From Planctomycetales bacterium 71-10 (GTDB taxonomy: Bacteria > Planctomycetota > Planctomycetia > Isosphaerales > Isosphaeraceae): DNA of 64,000 nucleotides. Where the stretch lies: assembly GCA_001898385.1 (NCBI GenBank), contig MKTT01000109.1:54903-118902 (forward strand), given 5' to 3'. The notes under the pieces are model-generated. The model was not told where the DNA came from. It saw only the letters and a program-made list of their open reading frames with translations, and ran no database searches. A program made the position numbers and the translations under genes. The stretch's first letter is position 1; every line of letters begins with the position of its first letter. Below, piece after piece: positions 49,166 to 61,612 of this stretch.

Positions 49166-50068
49166 ATGATCCGCCTGGGCCTTTGCTGCACGTTCCGCGA
49201 CGAGCCGATCAAGTTCCGGGTGGCGACGGCCGCCGCTCTTTCGCGCCTGGACCGGGCCGAGGCGGATGCGCGACTTGTCGCCCTGTGTCTCGCGAACGCC
49301 GACTCCCTGCTCGCCGCGCTGAGGTTCTGCGCCAGGGCCGGGATCGGCTGCTTCCGGGTCAACAGCCAGGTCTTGCCGCTGAAGACGCAGCCGACGTTCG
49401 CCTACGACGTGGCGGGCCTCCCCGACGGTGATGCGATCGTCGCGCGCTTCCGCGCGTGCGGGGAATTCGCCCGCGTCAACGGCCTGCGGACGTGCTTCCA
49501 TCCCGACCAGTTCGTCGTCCTCAACTCGCGCAAGCCCGAGGTCGTCGCCGCGTCGATCCGCGAGCTGGAGTACCAGGCCGAAGTCGCCGAATGGATCGGG
49601 GCCGACGTCATCAACATCCACGGCGGCGGGGCCTTCGGCGACAAGTCCGCGGCCCTGGCGGATTTCGCGCGGGCGCTGGACCTCCTGTCGCCCCGCGCGC
49701 GGTCGCGGCTGACCGTCGAGAACGACGACCGGGTCTTCACGCCGACGGACCTGCTGCCCGTCTGTCGGGCCGCGGGGATCCCGCTGGTCTACGACGCCCA
49801 TCACCACCGCTGCAACCCCGACGGGCTCTCCGTCGAGGAGGCCACCGCCGCGGCCCTGGAGACCTGGGGCCGCGAGCCGATGTTCCACATCTCCAGCCCC
49901 ATCGCCGGCTGGGACGGCCCCCGCCCCGAGCGGCATCACGACTTCATCGACCTCGCCGACTTCCCCGCCTGCTGGCGAGGACTCGACGCGACCGTGGAGG
50001 TGGAGGCGAAGGCGAAGGAGGTCGCCGTCCTGAAGCTCAAGGCCGACCTGGACGCGATGGGGCGGTGA
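49166..50068 (+). CDS. UV-damage endonuclease (UvsE/UVDE family)
   Basis: A 300-residue TIM-barrel nuclease that nicks DNA 5' of UV photoproducts. Family motifs are LGLCCTFRDEPIKFR at the N-terminus, ALRFCARAGIGCFRVNSQVL, TCFHPDQFVVLNSRKPEVV, INIHGGGAFGDKSAAL, RLTVENDDRVFTPTDLLPVC and LVYDAHHHRCNP; these carry the metal-binding His, Glu and Asp residues. The ribosome site before ATG 49166 is weak. It is a single-gene unit, convergent with the PfkB kinase gene 4 bases away. Confidence 0.88.
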   Translation: MIRLGLCCTFRDEPIKFRVATAAALSRLDRAEADARLVALCLANADSLLAALRFCARAGIGCFRVNSQVLPLKTQPTFAYDVAGLPDGDAIVARFRACGEFARVNGLRTCFHPDQFVVLNSRKPEVVAASIRELEYQAEVAEWIGADVINIHGGGAFGDKSAALADFARALDLLSPRARSRLTVENDDRVFTPTDLLPVCRAAGIPLVYDAHHHRCNPDGLSVEEATAAALETWGREPMFHISSPIAGWDGPRPERHHDFIDLADFPACWRGLDATVEVEAKAKEVAVLKLKADLDAMGR

Positions 50069-50072
50069 CGGG

Positions 50073-51044
50073 TCAGACGGCCTCGACGGTCAGCTCGTTG
50101 CGGGCGATGAAGGCGTCGGCCTCCGCCCGGGTGAAGACTCCGGCCGTCGTCCCGACGGCGCGGACGCAACTGGCGCCGACGGCGCTGGCCAGGCGCAGAC
50201 AGCCCAGCTCGTCCAGGCCGTCGAGCAGCCCGGCGATGTAGCCGGCGTCGAAGGCGTCGCCGCCGCCGGAGCCGTCGACGCAGGATACGGGGTAGCTCCC
50301 GAGGCGCACCCGCAACCCATCGGAGACGGCGACCGCGCCACGCTCGCCGCGGGTGACGACCACCCGCCGCGCGCCCAGGTCGCGGAACCCCAGCGCCTGG
50401 CGCAGCGGGTCGTCCTCGCCGAGGATCAGGGCGGCCTCGTCGGTGTTGGGCAGGAACACGTCGGTCTCGGGCAGGATCGGCCGCAGGCGATCCAGGTGGT
50501 CGCTCGGCCCCGGGGTCACGACGTCCAGCACGGTGATCGTCCCGGAGCGTCGAGCCCACGCGAACCGCTCGGCGACCGCCTCGGGATCCAGGCCGGGCAT
50601 GACCAGGTAGCCGCCCAGGTACAACACGCGGGGAGGGTCGGCCAGGGCGTCGTCGAGGTCCTCGGCCGTGAACCCTCGGTTCGCCCCGAAGCTGTGGATG
50701 TAGCGCCGGTCCTCGCCTCGCACGTTGACGACCAGGGTCTGGCTCGTCGCCCGCTCGGGGTCGACCCGCAGGGACCGGACGTCGACGCCGTGCTCCGCGA
50801 GCGTCTCGGCCACGAAGCGGCCGAAGGCGTCGTCGCCCACCTTGCCGCAGATCGCCGAGCGGACGCCCAGTCGCGCCAAGTCCATCGCGGCGTTGGAGGC
50901 GCAGCCGCCGATGTTCAGGACCAGGTCGTCGGCCGTCATCAGCTCGCCGGCCGCCGGCATGCGCTCGATCGGCGTGCAGAGGTGATCGGCCACGACGATC
51001 CCCGCGCAGACGACGGGCGGTCTCGATCCGGTGGTGATGGGCAT
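50073..51044 (-). CDS. PfkB-family carbohydrate kinase
   Basis: A 323-residue ribokinase-like enzyme that would phosphorylate a sugar or sugar acid. The N-terminal substrate motif is LNIGGCASNAAMDLARLGVR. The C-terminal PfkB signature is DGSGGGDAFDAG, with the catalytic Asp present and GAGD changed to GGGD. It is the last gene of the DeoR-led operon, 52 bases after the E1 gene. With an aldolase in the operon, it likely makes the phosphorylated substrate that the aldolase cleaves (inference). Confidence 0.85.
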   Translation of the reverse strand: MPITTGSRPPVVCAGIVVADHLCTPIERMPAAGELMTADDLVLNIGGCASNAAMDLARLGVRSAICGKVGDDAFGRFVAETLAEHGVDVRSLRVDPERATSQTLVVNVRGEDRRYIHSFGANRGFTAEDLDDALADPPRVLYLGGYLVMPGLDPEAVAERFAWARRSGTITVLDVVTPGPSDHLDRLRPILPETDVFLPNTDEAALILGEDDPLRQALGFRDLGARRVVVTRGERGAVAVSDGLRVRLGSYPVSCVDGSGGGDAFDAGYIAGLLDGLDELGCLRLASAVGASCVRAVGTTAGVFTRAEADAFIARNELTVEAV

Positions 51045-53162: not shown

Positions 53163-54194
53163 TCAGCCTCCCAACGATTCCAGTTCGCCCACGATCGCGT
53201 TCAGGAAGCCGGCGGCGTACTTGCCGCTCGCGACGCGATGATCCACCGAGAGCGTGAGGTTCACCCGCTGCTGCACGACGACCTGGCCGTCGACCACCGC
53301 GACGACCGGCATCACCTTGCCCACGGCGAGGATGGCCGACTCGGGCGGGTTGATCATCGCGGCGAACGACTCGACGCCACTCCCCCCGAGGTTCGAGATC
53401 GTCAGGCACGCCGACCGGGAGACGCGCGCTTCGGGGTCGCCGGCTCGCAGCCGCTCCGCCGCGGCGACGATCTCTCGCGAGATCGCCTCCAGAGACTTGT
53501 CCCCGGGCCCTTCGATCGACGGCGTGAAGAGGTCGCCCTCGACGTCCACGGCCACGCCGATTGCGACGACCGGGGCCGGGATCAGGCGGTCGTCCTCGTA
53601 ACGGCATCGGAAGCGGTCGAACGTCCGCAGGGCGCGGGCCGTCGCCCGCACGAAGAAGGCGTCCCAGGCGAGGCCGCCGGCCGCGGCCTTCCGCCGGGCG
53701 ACCATCGGGCCGGCGTCGGCCGAGGTCTGGAGGTAGAAATGCGGGACCGTCCGCTGACTCTCCGCCAGCCGACGCGCCGCGACCTTCTGGGGGACGCTCA
53801 GCGGGGTCGCGGCGGGCGCGCCCGACGACCTGGCCTCGCGGTTGCGGGCGAAGAACGATCGCCGCTCCCCGATCTCCGGCGTCGCTACCCGCGTCGGGGG
53901 AGGCGAGGGCGCCCGCGCGACCTGGGGCGAGATTTCCGCGGCCGGCGAGGCCGCCGCGTCCCCTTCCAGGACGGCGATCGTCTCGCCGGCGTCGATCTCG
54001 GCCCCCTCGCCCGCCACGATCGTCTTCAACATCCCGGACGCGACCGCCTCGACCTGCATGACGGCCTTGTCGGTCTCGACCTCCAGGATCGGCTCCCCGC
54101 GCCGGACCGTCGCCCCGGGCGCGACGAGCCAGCGGACGACCTTGAGCGTCGCCCCGGTGGTCGCCAGGTCGGGCATCTTCAGGGGGACGTCCAT
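53163..54194 (-). CDS. Lipoyl-dependent acyltransferase (E2) with altered catalytic motif
   Basis: A 343-residue protein. The lipoyl domain (about 1-78) has the lipoylated lysine in EVETDKAVMQVEA. A Pro/Ala/Arg linker follows, then a catalytic domain (about 130-343) with SVPQKVAARRLAESQRTVPH, ISNLGGSGVESFAAMINPPE and SVDHRVASGKYAAGFL. The usual DHRVVDG is DHRVASG here, so the Asp of HxxxDG is Ser. A peripheral-subunit-binding domain is not recognisable in the linker. ATG 54194 shares one base with the aldolase stop. Confidence 0.82.
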   Translation of the reverse strand: MDVPLKMPDLATTGATLKVVRWLVAPGATVRRGEPILEVETDKAVMQVEAVASGMLKTIVAGEGAEIDAGETIAVLEGDAAASPAAEISPQVARAPSPPPTRVATPEIGERRSFFARNREARSSGAPAATPLSVPQKVAARRLAESQRTVPHFYLQTSADAGPMVARRKAAAGGLAWDAFFVRATARALRTFDRFRCRYEDDRLIPAPVVAIGVAVDVEGDLFTPSIEGPGDKSLEAISREIVAAAERLRAGDPEARVSRSACLTISNLGGSGVESFAAMINPPESAILAVGKVMPVVAVVDGQVVVQQRVNLTLSVDHRVASGKYAAGFLNAIVGELESLGG

Positions 54195-55105
54195 CAGCGT
54201 TCCTCCGAGTGGGGCGAGGGCGCCCGGCCGCAGCAGCCCAGCAGGCCGATCCGCTCCATAACGGCCTCGCGCACGGCCAACCGCCCGGCCGTCATCACGT
54301 CGTCCTCGCCCCCCATGCCGAGCCTTTGGTGGGGATCGGAGCACTCGCGATCGAGGTGGGCGCGGACGGCTCGTAGGTATCGCTGCTTCAGATAGGTCCC
54401 GAAGTTCACCTTGGCGACGCCCCGCGCGATCGCCTCGCGGAGCGAGTCGGGCTCGATGCCGGTCCCGCCGTGCAGGACGAGGGGGACGCTCGTGCGCTCG
54501 CGGATTCTCTCCAGCAGCGCCAGGTCGAGCGTACGCGTCCCGTCCAGCTTGACGTGGACGTTGCCGACGCTGACCGCGAGCAGGTCGACCCCCGTGGCCT
54601 CGACGAACGCCGCGGCCTGGTCGGGGTCGGTGGCCTCCCCCGCGGCGCTGCCGTGCCCGGGGCTGCCGGCGGGCAGTTCCCCCAGCTCGGCCTCCACGGC
54701 CACGCCTCGCGCGTGGGCGATCTCGGTGAGCCGGGCGACCCGTCGCGTGTAGTCTTCGAGCGATGCGGCCGGGTCGGCCGGCATGACGAGATTGAACCCG
54801 AGCGTGATCGCCGAACGGACCTGCGAGTCGTCCGGGCATTCGTTGAAGATGAGGCCGCACGGGACCGCGGCGGATTCGGCGGCGGCCCGGCCCAGCGCCG
54901 CGTACCAGGAGAGCCGCTCCTCGCACTTCCGGCCCGGATCGCTCAGGAACGCGCCGTTGAAGCCGACGATCGTCGGCGACCCGGCCTGCTCCGCGGCGTC
55001 GATCACGCCCGCGAGCGAGTCGAGGTTCCAGCTTTCGAAGTAGCCGAGGGCGTACCCGCCCGCGACCGCCCTGGAAACCATCCCGCGCACGTCCTCAAGA
55101 GGCAT
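54194..55105 (-). CDS. Class II aldolase, fructose-bisphosphate/tagatose-type, divergent active site
   Basis: A 303-residue TIM-barrel protein of the class II aldolase family. Family features are ALGYFESWNLDSLAGVIDAA, TIVGFNGAFLS, VEAELGELPAG, VGNVHVKLDG and VPLVLHGGTGIEPD (two metal-ligand histidines). The canonical HLDHG segment, which supplies the catalytic Asp and another metal-ligand His, reads IFNECP here, so Asp is replaced by Asn and His by Glu. It may cleave an unusual substrate or do other chemistry. It begins within the end of the DeoR regulator gene (11-base overlap). Confidence 0.8.
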   Translation of the reverse strand: MPLEDVRGMVSRAVAGGYALGYFESWNLDSLAGVIDAAEQAGSPTIVGFNGAFLSDPGRKCEERLSWYAALGRAAAESAAVPCGLIFNECPDDSQVRSAITLGFNLVMPADPAASLEDYTRRVARLTEIAHARGVAVEAELGELPAGSPGHGSAAGEATDPDQAAAFVEATGVDLLAVSVGNVHVKLDGTRTLDLALLERIRERTSVPLVLHGGTGIEPDSLREAIARGVAKVNFGTYLKQRYLRAVRAHLDRECSDPHQRLGMGGEDDVMTAGRLAVREAVMERIGLLGCCGRAPSPHSEER

Positions 55106-55901
55106 GAATTGTCTCCTCCGGCCGGGCCGGCTCGCTCCCGGACACGATGACGCGTTTGCCGGCGTATTCCAGCCGCTTCACCTCCGCCTCGGGGGCCGCG
55201 GCATCGGTGACGACCGTGTGGATCTGCCCCGGATCGAGGGCCTTGCACAGGGCACGAAGGCCGAACTTGGTGTGATCGACCAGCAGGACCAGTTCCGAGC
55301 ACCGCCGGGCGGCCGCCTGCTTGATCCGGATCGATTCGATGGCCGCCTCGAAGGTCCCCTCGGCCGGGAGGAACCCCTTGGTCGAGACGAACGCTCGGTC
55401 GACGAGGAACCGGTCGAGCCATTCCTCGCTCGCCAGGCCGACGAACGACCCGCTGGCCGGGTCGAACTGGCCGCCGACGCCGATCGTCGTGTTCCGGCCG
55501 CCTCGCCCCAGCTCCAGGCAGGCCACCGCGGAGTTGGTGACGACGGTCACGGCCTCCCGCTCCCGCGCGATCCGCCTCGCCAGCTCCAGGCAGGTCGTGC
55601 TGGGGTCGAGGAAGATGGTCTGCCCCGGCTCGATGAGGTCCAGCGCCCGCTCGGCGATCGACCGCTTCTCCGCGACGTTGACCGCGAATCGATCGGACAG
55701 GGCCGTCTCGTAGTAGCCCGGCGGCGCCGTCGCCTTCTGGATCCCGCCCAGGGTCTTGATTACCGCGCCCCTGGTGGCCAGCCGGTCGACCTCCCTCCGG
55801 ACGGTCATCGTGCTGACGCCGAGCGCCTCGGCCAGCTCCTGGTAGCTGCACGCCCCGCGGAGTTCCAGCCGCTCAAGGATCGACCGCCCTCGATTCATCA
55901 T
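55095..55901 (-). CDS. DeoR-family transcriptional regulator
   Basis: A 268-residue repressor-type regulator. The N-terminal HTH is ACSYQELAEALGVSTMTVRR followed by EVDRLATRGAVIKTLGG. The C-terminal sugar-phosphate sensor domain (about 75-250) has FLDPSTTCLELARRI, VVTNSAVACLELG and LLVDHTKFGL. The ATG at 55901 (or the adjacent ATG) begins the HTH domain; the ORF track extension to 56090 runs through the operator region. It is first in the operon deoR-aldolase-E2-E1-pfkB. The inverted repeats upstream are likely its operators, with a phosphorylated sugar as inducer. Confidence 0.87.
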   Translation of the reverse strand: MMNRGRSILERLELRGACSYQELAEALGVSTMTVRREVDRLATRGAVIKTLGGIQKATAPPGYYETALSDRFAVNVAEKRSIAERALDLIEPGQTIFLDPSTTCLELARRIAREREAVTVVTNSAVACLELGRGGRNTTIGVGGQFDPASGSFVGLASEEWLDRFLVDRAFVSTKGFLPAEGTFEAAIESIRIKQAAARRCSELVLLVDHTKFGLRALCKALDPGQIHTVVTDAAAPEAEVKRLEYAGKRVIVSGSEPARPEETIHAS

Positions 55902-55962
55902 CGGACGCCTGCTTAACTCGACGGGCGGACGACCCCCTCGCCGCTCCGACCAGACTTCCACG

Positions 55963-56114
55963 CATGATAAAGTGCCGGGACCGTCCTTGCAATCGCTCGA
56001 CGTGATTTTTTCACACCTGCTCCGACTCGATGTGAAAAATTCACGACCCCGACTCGACGGCGAGGGCAGGCCGATTGCACCATAAACCATGGTCCTGTGA
56101 GCACTTTATCCATG
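55963..56114. promoter_or_regulatory. Long-range inverted repeat pair upstream of the DeoR operon
   Basis: CATGATAAAGTGC (55963-55975) and GCACTTTATCCATG (56101-56114) are inverted copies differing by one inserted base, about 125 bases apart. They bracket the control region of the DeoR operon. Two half-operators at this distance could support looping by a DeoR tetramer. The right copy overlaps the end of the ISAs1 remnant. Confidence 0.5.
56004..56042. promoter_or_regulatory. Central operator-like inverted repeat of the DeoR operon
   Basis: GATTTTTTCACA and TGTGAAAAATTC form 12-bp arms with one mismatch around a 15-base spacer, about 100 bases upstream of the DeoR regulator start. The T/A runs make it stand out from the GC-rich surroundings. 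It is a candidate operator overlapping the promoter. Confidence 0.55.
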
Positions 56115-56737: not shown

Positions 56738-57490
56738 GTGATCGGGATCGACCTCGGCGGCAAGGTGGCCCTCGTGACGGGCGCGGGGCAGGGGCTCGGT
56801 CGCGCCGCCGCGACCCGCCTGCACGCGGCCGGCGCCGCCGTCGTCGTCAATTACCCGCCCGACGAGGCCGGCCGGAACGCCGAGCTGGCCCGGGACGTCG
56901 TCGCCGGCCTGGGCGACCGTGCCGCGGCCTTGTCCGCCGACGTGCGCGACCCGGAGCAGGTCGACGCCATGCTCTCGGCGATCCGCGAGCGATTCGGCGG
57001 GCTCGACGTGGTCGTGAACAATGCGGCCGTCATCCGAGACCGGACGATCAGGAAGATGACCGCCGAGGACTGGGACGTCGTCATCGGGACGGACCTCACG
57101 GGAGTCTTCCACGTGTGCCGGGCGGCGGCCGCGATCATGACGGACGGCGGCCGGATCGTGAACATCGCCTCGATCTCCGGCGTCGTCGGCTTCTATGGGC
57201 AGGCCAATTACGCGGCGGCCAAGGCCGGCGTCATCGCGCTCACCAAGGTGCTGAGCAAGGAGCTGGCGTCGCGGCGGATCACGGTCAACGCCGTGGCCCC
57301 CGGGGTGGTGCTGACGGACATGGGCAAGACGATCCCCGAGGAGGTCCGCGCCAAGATGCTGGCCCAGATCCCGCTCAACCGCTTCGGCGAGCCCGACGAG
57401 ATCGCCCACGCGATCCTGTTCCTCGCCAGCGACCTGGCGTCCTACATCACCGGCCAGACCGTCCACGTCAACGGCGGCTGGTGGTCGTGA
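56738..57490 (+). CDS. SDR-family oxidoreductase (FabG/acetoacetyl-CoA reductase or hydroxybutyrate dehydrogenase type)
   Basis: A 250-residue NAD(P)-dependent enzyme starting at GTG 56738. The cofactor motif is [12 protein letters not shown], then [10 protein letters not shown] and the catalytic Ser/Tyr/Lys in [20 protein letters not shown] (Tyr near 158). The C-terminal segment is [13 protein letters not shown]. The gene order with CoA-transferase, thiolase and permease suggests interconversion of 3-hydroxybutyrate or hydroxybutyryl-CoA with the keto form. The exact substrate cannot be told. Its stop overlaps the next start. Confidence 0.85.
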
Positions 57491-59037
57491 GCGGCCGCAT
57501 CGGGCGCCTGCTCTGCTCCGCGTCCGAAGCGGCGCGAATCCTCGAGGACGGGCAGACCGTCGTGAGCGGCGGTTTCGTCGGCGCGGCCCACCCGGAGGCC
57601 CTCACGCAGGCGATCGAGGCCCGTTTCCTCGAATCCGGCCGCCCGCGCGGGCTGACGCTGCTCTACGCCGCCGGGCAGGGCGACGGGGCCGGCCGCGGGC
57701 TCAACCACCTGGGGCACCGGGGGCTCCTGGCCCGCGTGATCGGCGGGCACTGGGGGCTCGCCCCCCGGATCGGCCGCCTCGCCCTCGCCGGCGACATCGA
57801 GGCCTACAACTTCCCCCAGGGCGTCATCTGCCACCTGCTGCGCGACATCGCCGCGGGCCGGCCGGGGTGCATCACCGCCGTCGGGCTGGGGACCTTCATC
57901 GACCCGATCCACCAGGGGGGGCGGCTGAACTCGCGGTCCACGGCCGAGATGGTCAGCCGCATCGAGATCGACGGCCGCGACTGGCTCTTCTATCGCGCCT
58001 TGCCGGTCCACGTCGGGCTGATCCGGGCCACGGCCGCGGACGTCCACGGCAATCTCCTGATGGACGAGGAGGCGATCGTCGGCGAAGTCCTGGCGATCGC
58101 CCAGGCCGTCCACAACAGCGGCGGCACGGTGATCGCCCAGGTCCGGAGCCTGCTGCCCCATGCGGCGCCGCCGATGTCGGTGAAGGTCCCCGGCGTCCTG
58201 GTGGATCGCGTCGTCGTGGCGGCCCCCGGGCAGCACGACCAGACCTTCGCCGAGCGCGACAACCCCGCGTACTATCGCGCCGCCGGACGAGAAGGGCCCG
58301 GCCGACGGCCGGAGCTGCCGGCGGGGCCCCGCCGGATCATCGCGTCGCGGGCCTGCGACGAGTTGAAGCCCGGCGCGATCGCCAACCTGGGGATCGGCAC
58401 GCCGGAGGGCGTCGCGCTCATCGCGGCCGAGCGCGGGCTCCTCGACGAGGTGACCCTCACGGTCGAGAGCGGGCCGATCGGCGGCGTCCCGGCCGGCGGC
58501 CTGAGCTTCGGCGCGTCGTCCCACCCGCAGGCGATCGTCGACCAGCCGTCGCAGTTCGACTTCTACGACGGCGGCGGCCTGGACTTCGCCGCCCTGGGCG
58601 CCGCCGAGATCGACCGTCGGGGGAACGTGAACGTCTCGCGATTCGGCGACCGCCTGGCGGGCGTCGGCGGGTTCGTCAACATCTCCCAGAACGCGCGAAG
58701 GGTGGTATTCTGCGGCACCTTGACGTCCGACGGGCTCGAGGTCGAGGTCGCGCGAGGCCGCCTGCGGATCGTCCGCGAGGGCCGGGTCCGCAAGTTCGTC
58801 GCCGACGTCGCGCAGCTGTCGTACGCCGCCGACGTCGCCCGTCGGAAGGGGCAGGAGGCGCTCTACGTCACCGAGCGGGCCGTGTTCCGGCTCGCGGACG
58901 AGGGCCTCGAATTGATCGAAGTCGCGCCGGGGGTCGACCTCGGACGCGACGTGCTCGACCAGATGGAATTCCGCCCGATCGTCCGGGAGCCGCGCCCGAT
59001 GCCGGCCTCGTCGTTCGACCGGGACGCCGGAGGCTGA
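57487..59037 (+). CDS. Acetate/propionate-type CoA-transferase (family I, fused subunits)
   Basis: A 516-residue protein with both halves of a family I CoA-transferase in one chain, like YdiF/propionate CoA-transferase. The N-terminal half has [17 protein letters not shown]. The C-terminal half has [20 protein letters not shown] and the catalytic Glu in [16 protein letters not shown] (near residue 325). The start GTG 57487 overlaps the SDR stop. It would activate acetoacetate or another short acid by moving CoA from a donor such as acetyl-CoA or succinyl-CoA. Confidence 0.85.
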
Positions 59038-59039
59038 TG

Positions 59040-60191
59040 ATGGCGGGAGTCTGCATCGTCGCGGCGAGGCGGACCGTCCTGGGACGCTTCCTCGGGAAGC
59101 TCCGGGACGCGTCCCCGGTCGACCTGGCGTGCGCGGCGGCCCGGCCGGCCCTGGACGGCCTCGACGCCTCGGCGATCGACCAGGTGATCGTGGGCAACGT
59201 CCTGGGCGCCGGCCAGGGGATGAACATTGCGCGACAGGTCGGCGTCCGGGTCGGGCTGCCGCCGGAAGTCCCGGCGTTCACCGTGAACATGATGTGCGGG
59301 TCGGGATTGCAGGCCGTCCGCCTAGCGGCCCAGGCGATCCGGGCGGGCGAGGCGAGGGCGATCCTCTGCGGCGGGACCGAGTCGATGTCGGGCTCGCCGT
59401 ATCTCGTCCCGCGCGCCAGGCAGGGCTTGAAGCTGGGCGACGCCGCGATGGTCGATTCCATCCTCCGGGACGGGCTGATCGACGCCTTCGACGGCCGGCA
59501 CATGGGGGTGCTGGTCGAGGCGATGGCCGCGTCCCGCGGCATCGGCCGTCGTCGGCAGGACGAATGGGCGGTCCGGAGCCAGTCGCGCTGCGCGGCCGCC
59601 GAGGCGTCCGGGGCCTTCAACGACGAGCGCGTGCCGCTGGACGGGCTGGACGTGGACGAGCATCCGCGGCCCGGGGCGACGCTCGACGGGCTCGCACGGC
59701 TGGGCGGGGCCTTCTCGCCGGACGGCTCGGTCACGGCCGGGAATGCGAGCGGCATCAACGACGGGGCGGCCATGCTGCTGCTGGCCGATCGCGACTTCGC
59801 GCGGCGGGAATCCTGGCCCATCCTCTGCGAATGGGTCGATTCAACGGCCGTGGGCTGCGAGCCGGCGTCGATGGGGCTCGGGCCGGTCTACGCGCTGCGG
59901 CGGCTCTGCGAGCGGGGGCGCTTCGACCTCGCGGAATGCGACATGATCGAGATCAACGAAGCCTTCGCCGCGCAGGTCCTGGCGTGCCTCCAGGACCTCG
60001 GAGTCGACGAGGGCTCGGTCAACCGCTGCGGCGGGGCGATCGCGCTGGGGCATCCGATCGGGGCCAGCGGGGCGAGGCTGGTCGTCCACGCCGCCCATCG
60101 GATCCGGCGAGGCGCGGCGCGGCGGGCGGCCGTCGGCCTCTGCGTGGGGGGCGGCATGGGCGTCGCCGCCCTGTTGCGCAGCCCGGATTGA
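59040..60191 (+). CDS. Thiolase (acetyl-CoA C-acetyltransferase)
   Basis: A 383-residue thiolase. The nucleophile is Cys86 in NMMCGSGLQAVR. The histidine motifs are NEAFAAQVL and GHPIGASGARLV, and the C-terminal base is in CVGGGMG. GGAGG sits 6 bases before ATG 59040; the ATG one codon earlier overlaps the previous stop (TGATG). With the CoA-transferase it would cleave acetoacetyl-CoA to two acetyl-CoA. Confidence 0.88.
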   Translation: MAGVCIVAARRTVLGRFLGKLRDASPVDLACAAARPALDGLDASAIDQVIVGNVLGAGQGMNIARQVGVRVGLPPEVPAFTVNMMCGSGLQAVRLAAQAIRAGEARAILCGGTESMSGSPYLVPRARQGLKLGDAAMVDSILRDGLIDAFDGRHMGVLVEAMAASRGIGRRRQDEWAVRSQSRCAAAEASGAFNDERVPLDGLDVDEHPRPGATLDGLARLGGAFSPDGSVTAGNASGINDGAAMLLLADRDFARRESWPILCEWVDSTAVGCEPASMGLGPVYALRRLCERGRFDLAECDMIEINEAFAAQVLACLQDLGVDEGSVNRCGGAIALGHPIGASGARLVVHAAHRIRRGAARRAAVGLCVGGGMGVAALLRSPD

Positions 60192-60223
60192 TCCACGAAC
60201 CGCGAGTCGGAGGGACGCCCGCC

Positions 60224-61612
60224 ATGTCGATCGAGGTCGGCGCCATCGCCCTGGCCCTGGGCCTGCTGATGACCGTCGCGTATCGCGGCCTCCCGGTGAT
60301 CGTCTTCGCCCCCCTGTGCGCCCTGCTGGCCGCGGGCTTGTCCGGCCTGCCGGTCCTGCCCAGCTACACCGATATGTTCATGACGGGGGCGGCCGGCTTC
60401 ATCCGGGCCTTCTTCCCGCTCTTTTTGCTGGGGGCCGTCTTCGGCAAGCTCATCGATGGCAGCGGCTCCGCGGCGGCGATCGCCGCGGCGATGATCCGGG
60501 CGCTGGGGCCTCGCCGCGCGATCCCGGCGGTGGTGCTCGCCGGGGCCGTTTTGACCTATGGGGGCGTGTCGCTGTTCGTGGTCGCGTTCGCCGTCTACCC
60601 GCTCAGTGCCGCTCTTTTCCGCGACGCGGGCATACCCAAGCGGCTGCTCCCCGCCGCGATCGCCCTCGGGGCGTTCACGTTCACCATGGACGCGCTGCCC
60701 GGCACGCCGCAGATCCAGAACATCATCCCGACGCGCTTCTTCATGACGGACGCCTACGCGGCCCCGGTGGTGGGTTTGATCGGGGGGCTCTCGGTGCTGC
60801 TCGGCGGCCTGTACTGGCTGGATCGGCGTCGGGCCTGGGCGGCGGCCGCGGGGGAGGGCTACGGCTCCGGCCATCTCCACGAGCCCGAGCCCCGGGGCGC
60901 GGACGATCTCCCCTCGCTCGGCGCGGCGGTTCTGCCGCTGGCGCTGGTCCTCGCGATCAACTTCGTCCTCAGCCGGACGTCGTGGTCGATCGACGCGTGG
61001 TATCCCGAGGCCGCGCTGCGGCGGGCCTTCCCCGCGACCAACCCTCGGGACGCGGCGCCGACCTGGGCGGTGATCGTCGCCCTCTCGGCCGGGATCGCGG
61101 CCACGCTGGCCCTGCACGCGAGGCGGATGCGGCTCCCCCTCTCGACGCTGCTCTCGACGGCGACGGCGGGCGCGCTGCCGGCCGTCTTCAACACGGCCTC
61201 GGAGGTGGGCTTCGGCACGGTCGTCAAGTCCCTCCCGGGCTTCGGCGCGGTCCGCAGCCGGGTCCTCGACGTCAGCTCCAACGTCCTCGTCTCCGAGGCC
61301 GTCGCCGTGAACGCCCTGGCCGGCATCACGGGCTCGGCCTCCGGCGGCCTATCAATCGCGCTGGAGGTGATGGGCGGGCATTATCTGGAGGCGGCCCGGG
61401 CGCAGGGGATCGGCCCCGAGCTGCTGCACCGGATCGCCGCGATGGCCTCCGGCGGCATGGACACGCTCCCGCACAACGGGGCGGTGATCACGCTCCTGGC
61501 CATCACCGGCCTGACCCATCGGCAATCGTACCCGGACATCTTCGCGATCACGCTCATCAAGACCGCGGTGGTCTTCGCCCTGGCCATGTCGGCGGCCTGG
61601 TTGCCGGGCTGA
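60224..61612 (+). CDS. GntP-family permease
   Basis: A 462-residue inner membrane protein with about 12 hydrophobic segments. Family-like parts include PVIVFAPLCALLAAGLSGLP, AGFIRAFFPLFLLGAVFGKL, GSGSAAAIAAAMI, GGVSLFVVAFAVYPL and the C-terminal ITGSASGGLSIALEVMGGHY. GntP proteins carry gluconate, 3-hydroxybutyrate or related acids with protons. The neighbouring thiolase and CoA-transferase favour a hydroxybutyrate/acetoacetate-type substrate (inference). CGGAGGGA lies 8 bases before the ATG. Confidence 0.85.
   Translation: MSIEVGAIALALGLLMTVAYRGLPVIVFAPLCALLAAGLSGLPVLPSYTDMFMTGAAGFIRAFFPLFLLGAVFGKLIDGSGSAAAIAAAMIRALGPRRAIPAVVLAGAVLTYGGVSLFVVAFAVYPLSAALFRDAGIPKRLLPAAIALGAFTFTMDALPGTPQIQNIIPTRFFMTDAYAAPVVGLIGGLSVLLGGLYWLDRRRAWAAAAGEGYGSGHLHEPEPRGADDLPSLGAAVLPLALVLAINFVLSRTSWSIDAWYPEAALRRAFPATNPRDAAPTWAVIVALSAGIAATLALHARRMRLPLSTLLSTATAGALPAVFNTASEVGFGTVVKSLPGFGAVRSRVLDVSSNVLVSEAVAVNALAGITGSASGGLSIALEVMGGHYLEAARAQGIGPELLHRIAAMASGGMDTLPHNGAVITLLAITGLTHRQSYPDIFAITLIKTAVVFALAMSAAWLPG

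Follow-up and report, generated by a model that had tools for sequence, protein, structure and literature searches.

A clade of class II aldolase-fold proteins with replaced catalytic-acid and metal-ligand residues, encoded beside a sugar kinase and a TPP/lipoyl dehydrogenase-like complex

In E. coli FbaA, zinc is held by His110, His226, and His264, joined in the buried site by Glu174, while Asp109 acts as the acid of aldol cleavage and Glu182, situated on a flexible loop, acts as the base (PMC11194214, PMC5434028). FbaA also acts as an epimerase in a side reaction for which Asp109 is dispensable (PMC5434028). YdjI of E. coli (PDB 6OFU), a DHAP-dependent aldolase accompanied by the kinase YdjH, is another described enzyme of this fold. 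The protein described here is encoded by Planctomycetales bacterium 71-10 in the window, i.e., the whole stretch of 64,000 nucleotides that was analysed. Of the residues held essential for the fructose-bisphosphate aldolase (FBA) reaction, only two histidines and one glutamate remain in it, and the strong E-values with aldolase models mean that such genes would be annotated as fructose-bisphosphate aldolase.

The gene was correctly placed by the first-pass annotation and forms a single intact ORF on the minus strand within that interval (Table 1). Its product matches the PF01116 profile with 194.1 bits (4e-57; gathering cut-off, 25.5 bits), residues 6–294 covering profile positions 3–277 of 277. 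The AF2 model, built from an input alignment of 36 family members, has a pLDDT of 90.9 and folds into a class II aldolase TIM barrel; a Foldseek search with this model returned class II aldolases or models of them at all of the top 50 places, with TM values of 0.8–0.9. The product is a PF01116 member by score and fold. Against the NCBIfam equivalogs for class II aldolases, it reaches less than half of every curated cut-off, the best being TIGR01859 (160.3 bits vs a cut-off of 343.05). Since the catalytic Asp, the three-His site, and the catalytic loop are not retained and the scores lie below the curated cut-offs, filing the protein as a fructose- or tagatose-bisphosphate aldolase is unwarranted, though it may still work like an aldolase. 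That the gene encodes the glycolytic FBA of the organism was rejected, because the source genome carries an FbaB-type class I FBA (517 bits vs a cut-off of 327), 10 of the 12 host genomes checked contain a second, canonical PF01116 gene that scores higher, and the aldolase-like gene is distributed patchily within its genus (three of six genomes searched).

Table 1. Features of the aldolase-like gene and its operon in the window
Feature	Position	Strand	Basis
PF01116 aldolase-like protein, 303 aa (P0001)	54194..55105	-	profile, fold, alignment
Glu24 codon, replacing the canonical FN Asn (E. coli FbaA Asn35 position)	55034..55036	-	alignment
Asn88-Glu89-Cys90, replacing Asp-His-Gly (FbaA Asp109-His110)	54836..54844	-	alignment
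Glu138-x-Glu140, EAE(L)G segment (Glu140 = FbaA Glu174 position)	54686..54694	-	alignment
His184 (GNVH), metal-ligand position kept (FbaA His226); Glu in Steroidobacter	54554..54556	-	alignment
His212 (LHGG), metal-ligand position kept (FbaA His264), invariant in clade	54470..54472	-	alignment
Likely operators: pair of GTGAN5TCAC palindromes, spaced 30 bp, upstream of deoR	56001..56045	.	pattern count
DeoR-family regulator, 269 aa; 11-nt overlap with the start of the aldolase-like gene	55095..55904	-	profile
Lipoyl + E2 acyltransferase subunit, 343 aa; 1-nt overlap with the stop of the aldolase-like gene	53163..54194	-	
E1 alpha-beta fusion of a TPP-dependent 2-oxoacid-dehydrogenase-like complex, 686 aa	51097..53157	-	
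PfkB-family sugar kinase, 323 aa; best solved relative YdjH	50073..51044	-	

The active site was compared with YdjI (6OFU), B. anthracis FBA (3Q94), the B. methanolicus FBAs, T. aquaticus FBA, and a SqiA. In both profile and single-sequence alignments with the solved class II aldolases, residues 88–90 (N-E-C, in IFNEC) fall ungapped on x-x-D-H-G, with Asn88 in the column of the catalytic Asp, Glu89 in that of the metal-ligand His, and Cys90 in that of the Gly. The exchanges of Asp to Asn and His to Glu, which had been read by eye, are thereby confirmed; the two later histidines previously said to remain, His184 and His212, indeed align with metal-binding histidines. An alternative Asp-His pair filling the metal site was ruled out, as no D-H pair occurs anywhere in the 303 residues, and the substitution stands. 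With the mapping to FbaA anchored by the FbaA-type rows L123 and L124 of the joint alignment, the zinc ligands His110, His226, His264, and Glu174 correspond to Glu89, His184, His212, and Glu140, and Asp109 corresponds to Asn88. Glu182 has no conserved acid counterpart; residues 143–158, in the loosely aligned Glu182-type loop, contain no conserved acid. Furthermore, Ile86 replaces the first His of HxDH, and Gly236 replaces the Asp of N-x-D-T. In place of the DPR arginine, which binds the distal phosphate in canonical class II aldolases, stands His259. The three-His metal site (FbaA 110, 226, and 264) thus keeps two of its histidines in the window protein and one in the Steroidobacter branch, where His184 is changed to Glu, Glu140 is changed to Asp, and the catalytic-type loop is deleted.

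Around the donor-phosphate pocket, Gly213, Thr/Ser215, Lys232, Asn234, and Thr237 are kept, with Gly236 at the Asp of N-x-D-T. The kept residues would suit a conventional class II DHAP aldolase whose aldehyde partner is unusual and which, like YdjI, would split a ketose-1-phosphate into DHAP and an aldehyde, the exchanged residues tuning specificity and metal; the nearest solved relatives, YdjI and B. anthracis FBA, and the neighboring kinase, nearest to YdjH, point in the same direction. However, the acid Asp109 and the base Glu182 (PMC11194214, PMC5434028) are without counterpart, and the Asn..Asp-His set is retained in all other surveyed rows, distant ones included. Such an ordinary aldolase is considered unlikely.

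A scan of genome contigs yielded 40 loci encoding relatives with 52–68% identity, whose hosts belong to the Planctomycetota, Verrucomicrobiota (Opitutae, Chthoniobacter), Anaerolineae, and Steroidobacter/Peristeroidobacter, spanning four phyla. None of the 41 members in the first alignment (the 40 relatives and the window protein) departs from Asn88 and Glu89, a count possibly biased by the seed patterns of the scan, which contained the N-E motif itself. A motif-blind sample was drawn from the PF01116 hits of 199 genomes of the phylum and 12 host genomes, with 68 loci kept or fetched. In the joint alignment, N-E is present in 54 of 54 clade rows (45 distinct sequences) and D-H in 59 of the 59 other rows readable at that column; four further odd-looking rows (L097–L099, L131), taken at first for another altered PF01116 group in which Tyr replaces His, are misaligned and also HLDH. 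Simultaneously, position 24 is Glu in all 54 N-E rows and Asn in all 54 D-H rows having a residue there. The acid is apparently swapped between the two positions (Asn/Asp to Glu/Asn), while the metal His becomes Glu. In the tree, the N-E rows occupy one side of a single branch with support of 100/99, and the clade, on this phylogeny, is of single origin. The title of the first-pass annotation could be read as a change in one gene; the substitutions are real but are the defining feature of a whole subfamily.

Glu24, Asn88, Glu89, and His212 are invariant across the four phyla, and 12 of the 15 active-site columns, chosen by the author from the known mechanism, are among the 60 invariant columns (hypergeometric, 5e-7). 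Compared with an 89% identical orthologue from another genome of the genus, dN is 0.06 and dS is 0.33 (dN/dS about 0.19), and third codon positions vary far more than first and second positions; the gene is under purifying selection. A sequencing error, frameshift, or local degeneration as the source of the altered residues deserves practically no credence: the ORF is intact, genes of the operon overlap, the same residues recur in the 89% identical orthologue, and sequencing error and pseudogene alike are ruled out by the orthologues and dN/dS. A paralogue that has lost catalysis and serves the operon as a structural or regulatory partner would account for simultaneous changes at the catalytic Asp, at one His ligand, and in the Glu loop. 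However, a dead site is expected to drift, and here the new residues show no variation across four phyla, all three co-segregating; His212, Asn234, and Thr237 are also conserved under the purifying selection described above, making this explanation quite improbable.

The most distant Asn-Glu relative (L137:913–1809, the same as L096) retains GYFESW and FNE, with FNES, GQAHLHG, and LHAASS replacing FNEC, GNVHI, and LHGGTG. It adjoins a formyltransferase gene, the operon is absent from its 3.1-kb contig, and it perhaps has a second function within the clade. In the plasmid collection, only distant matches were found, all below 60% identity. No description of the clade or the operon was found in the open-access literature searched.

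The gene is the second in an operon with the order deoR, aldolase-like gene, E2, E1alpha-beta, and pfkB, which, as predicted from these genes, is a sugar-catabolic module. In most sufficiently long loci elsewhere, the usual order is deoR, aldolase-like gene, pfkB, lipoyl/E2, E1alpha, and E1beta, with members sometimes missing or interleaved (L028 has the kinase only). At many loci, the match to E2 is confined to its lipoyl part. This part is about 77–84 aa long in L004, L009, L018, L030, L031, L033–L035, L037, and L040, the E2 places of which show no catalytic acyltransferase domain; E1 at the lipoyl-only loci may feed a stand-alone lipoyl carrier. Among 13 compared genomes of the family group, E1 is 81–100% identical in three (G000, G001, and G003), which are those with the aldolase-like gene; in the 10 without it, the best E1 is only 43–44% identical and matches a separate housekeeping copy that is also present in G000. 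By this co-occurrence, the dehydrogenase complex is therefore tied to the aldolase-like gene. In addition, the two GTGAN5TCAC palindromes upstream of deoR are the only ones in the 64-kb window (0.4 expected). The same pair occurs at 31 bp in L020 and L024, and a single site occurs in L017, L023, and L043; the pair probably forms autoregulatory operators of DeoR.

Beyond the operon, the window contains divergent genes on the plus strand (56738–61612) for an SDR reductase, a CoA-transferase-like protein, a thiolase, and a GntP-like transporter, which probably serve short-chain hydroxyacid use, and a UvdE-family UV-damage endonuclease gene (49166–50068, plus strand) that is convergent with the operon. 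GH38 alpha-mannosidase-family genes lie near the operon in several Planctomycetota (L001, L006, L013, L027, and L039; profile-checked in L013, L027, and L039), and phytanoyl-CoA-dioxygenase-like genes lie amid or near it in Verrucomicrobiota (L036, L040, L021, and L007; profile-checked in L040, 8127–8918, only). In the Steroidobacter loci, including L037/L115/L135 (Peristeroidobacter soli), the cluster extends with an LsrF-type thiolase, an RPE-like epimerase, a PF00596/short-chain dehydrogenase bifunctional aldolase, a D-lyxose isomerase-family protein, and a sugar MFS transporter. This extended cluster stands under an RpiR regulator, and its LsrF lies outside a recognised AI-2 operon.

The preferred reading, held with rather better than even confidence, is that of a neofunctionalised metal enzyme with a class II (class IIB-like) aldolase fold, acting on a kinase-made sugar phosphate. 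The divalent-metal site would be retained as Glu89-His184-His212 (plus Glu140), compared with the canonical His-His-His-Glu, and would presumably still bind metal. The canonical Asp and the Glu loop used in catalysis are lost, and Glu24, which in the family alignment faces the site of the former Asp, would most likely be the replacement acid/base; we infer the active-site geometry of Glu24, Glu89, His184, and His212 from the alignment. Against a uniform site, the Glu at position 184 and the deleted loop in Steroidobacter mean that the site differs even inside the clade. The substrate would be a sugar phosphate supplied by the neighboring YdjH-like PfkB kinase, from which the aldolase-like protein would form or use a metal-stabilised enediolate. 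Its product would then pass, directly or via further steps and presumably in this order, to the co-encoded TPP E1 and lipoyl/E2, which would yield acyl-CoA.

As for the reaction, retro-aldol cleavage with a relocated acid is given slightly less than an even chance. That the aldolase scaffold carries an isomerase, epimerase, or dehydratase, which would merely rearrange the sugar phosphate first and leave C–C cleavage to the TPP E1 or the Steroidobacter LsrF-like thiolase, is a serious possibility that nevertheless falls somewhat short of even. It would explain why exactly both cleavage residues are lost with the metal ligands and a new carboxylate conserved; C–C cleaving, CoA-using enzymes are co-encoded (E1/E2, and the LsrF-type protein in Steroidobacter and L039, with 500 bits vs a cut-off of 297), and the FbaA epimerase activity is independent of Asp109 (PMC5434028). 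However, epimerisation by FbaA used Asp288 and Glu182, which here are Gly236 and absent, respectively. A YdjI-like retro-aldol step and an isomerase-, epimerase-, or dehydratase-type step upstream of a TPP-dependent cleavage fit about equally. Within the preferred reading of a neofunctionalised metal enzyme, the boldest version is proposed tentatively, as somewhat less than an even prospect: the class II aldolase scaffold would have acquired a new function, with a carboxylate in the metal site, a relocated acid/base, a non-aldol step, and an undescribed sugar-phosphate-to-acyl-CoA pathway via a dedicated TPP/lipoyl complex. The metal site in that version, Glu-His-His, or Glu-Glu-His in Steroidobacter, is put forward just as tentatively.

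Because the residues are replaced in every member and the sugar-kinase and CoA-forming dehydrogenase neighbors are near-constant, the clade probably performs a different step of sugar breakdown. The suggestion of the first-pass annotation that metal choice or chemistry may differ from FBA finds good support in the clade invariance, the exchange of Asn24 to Glu, the absent Glu182-type loop, and the operon, and is kept as a predicted difference; Glu24, the loss of that loop, the change of His184 to Glu in Steroidobacter, and the operon go beyond it. Evolution has here fixed three exchanges (His to Glu, Asp to Asn, and Asn to Glu) in the metal site of a textbook metalloenzyme, so that metal choice and acid/base placement can be probed by mutation in both directions. 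The clade also suggests that a sugar pathway still to be characterised exists in Planctomycetota, Verrucomicrobiota, Anaerolineae, and Steroidobacter.

For IolJ (6-phospho-5-dehydro-2-deoxygluconate aldolase), among the known systems, genes for inositol dehydrogenase, IolE, and IolB were not noticed near the aldolase-like gene, and the PfkB kinase scores 134 of 300 for IolC. The SqiA sulfofructose-phosphate aldolases (8Q57–8Q5A) have the class II fold and a similar length but keep D-H, unlike the window protein, and no sulfoquinovose gene was recognised in the operon neighborhood. LsrF (3-hydroxy-5-phosphonooxypentane-2,4-dione thiolase) belongs to PF01791 and is a neighbor, not a homologue, of the PF01116 protein; its gene type lies behind the E1 gene in Steroidobacter, is absent from the window operon, and suggests acetyl-CoA and triose phosphate as end products there. 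With the class II FBA/TBP aldolases (TIGR01859, GatY, KbaY; PF01116), the window protein shares fold, length, His184, His212, Glu138/Glu140, and several donor-phosphate loop residues, but it is altered at the Asp, the first metal His, the following Gly, and the FN Asn, as well as at the Glu182-type loop, the Asp of NxD-T, and the DPR arginine. The top PDB sequence match is YdjI, with about 33% identity, which is also second in the fold search, and YdjH is likewise the best match of the neighboring PfkB kinase. The ydj cluster is not known to include a counterpart of the TPP E1/E2 genes. YdjI has FN..WDHG, whereas the window protein has FE..FNEC, and the N-E clade stands separate from YdjI.
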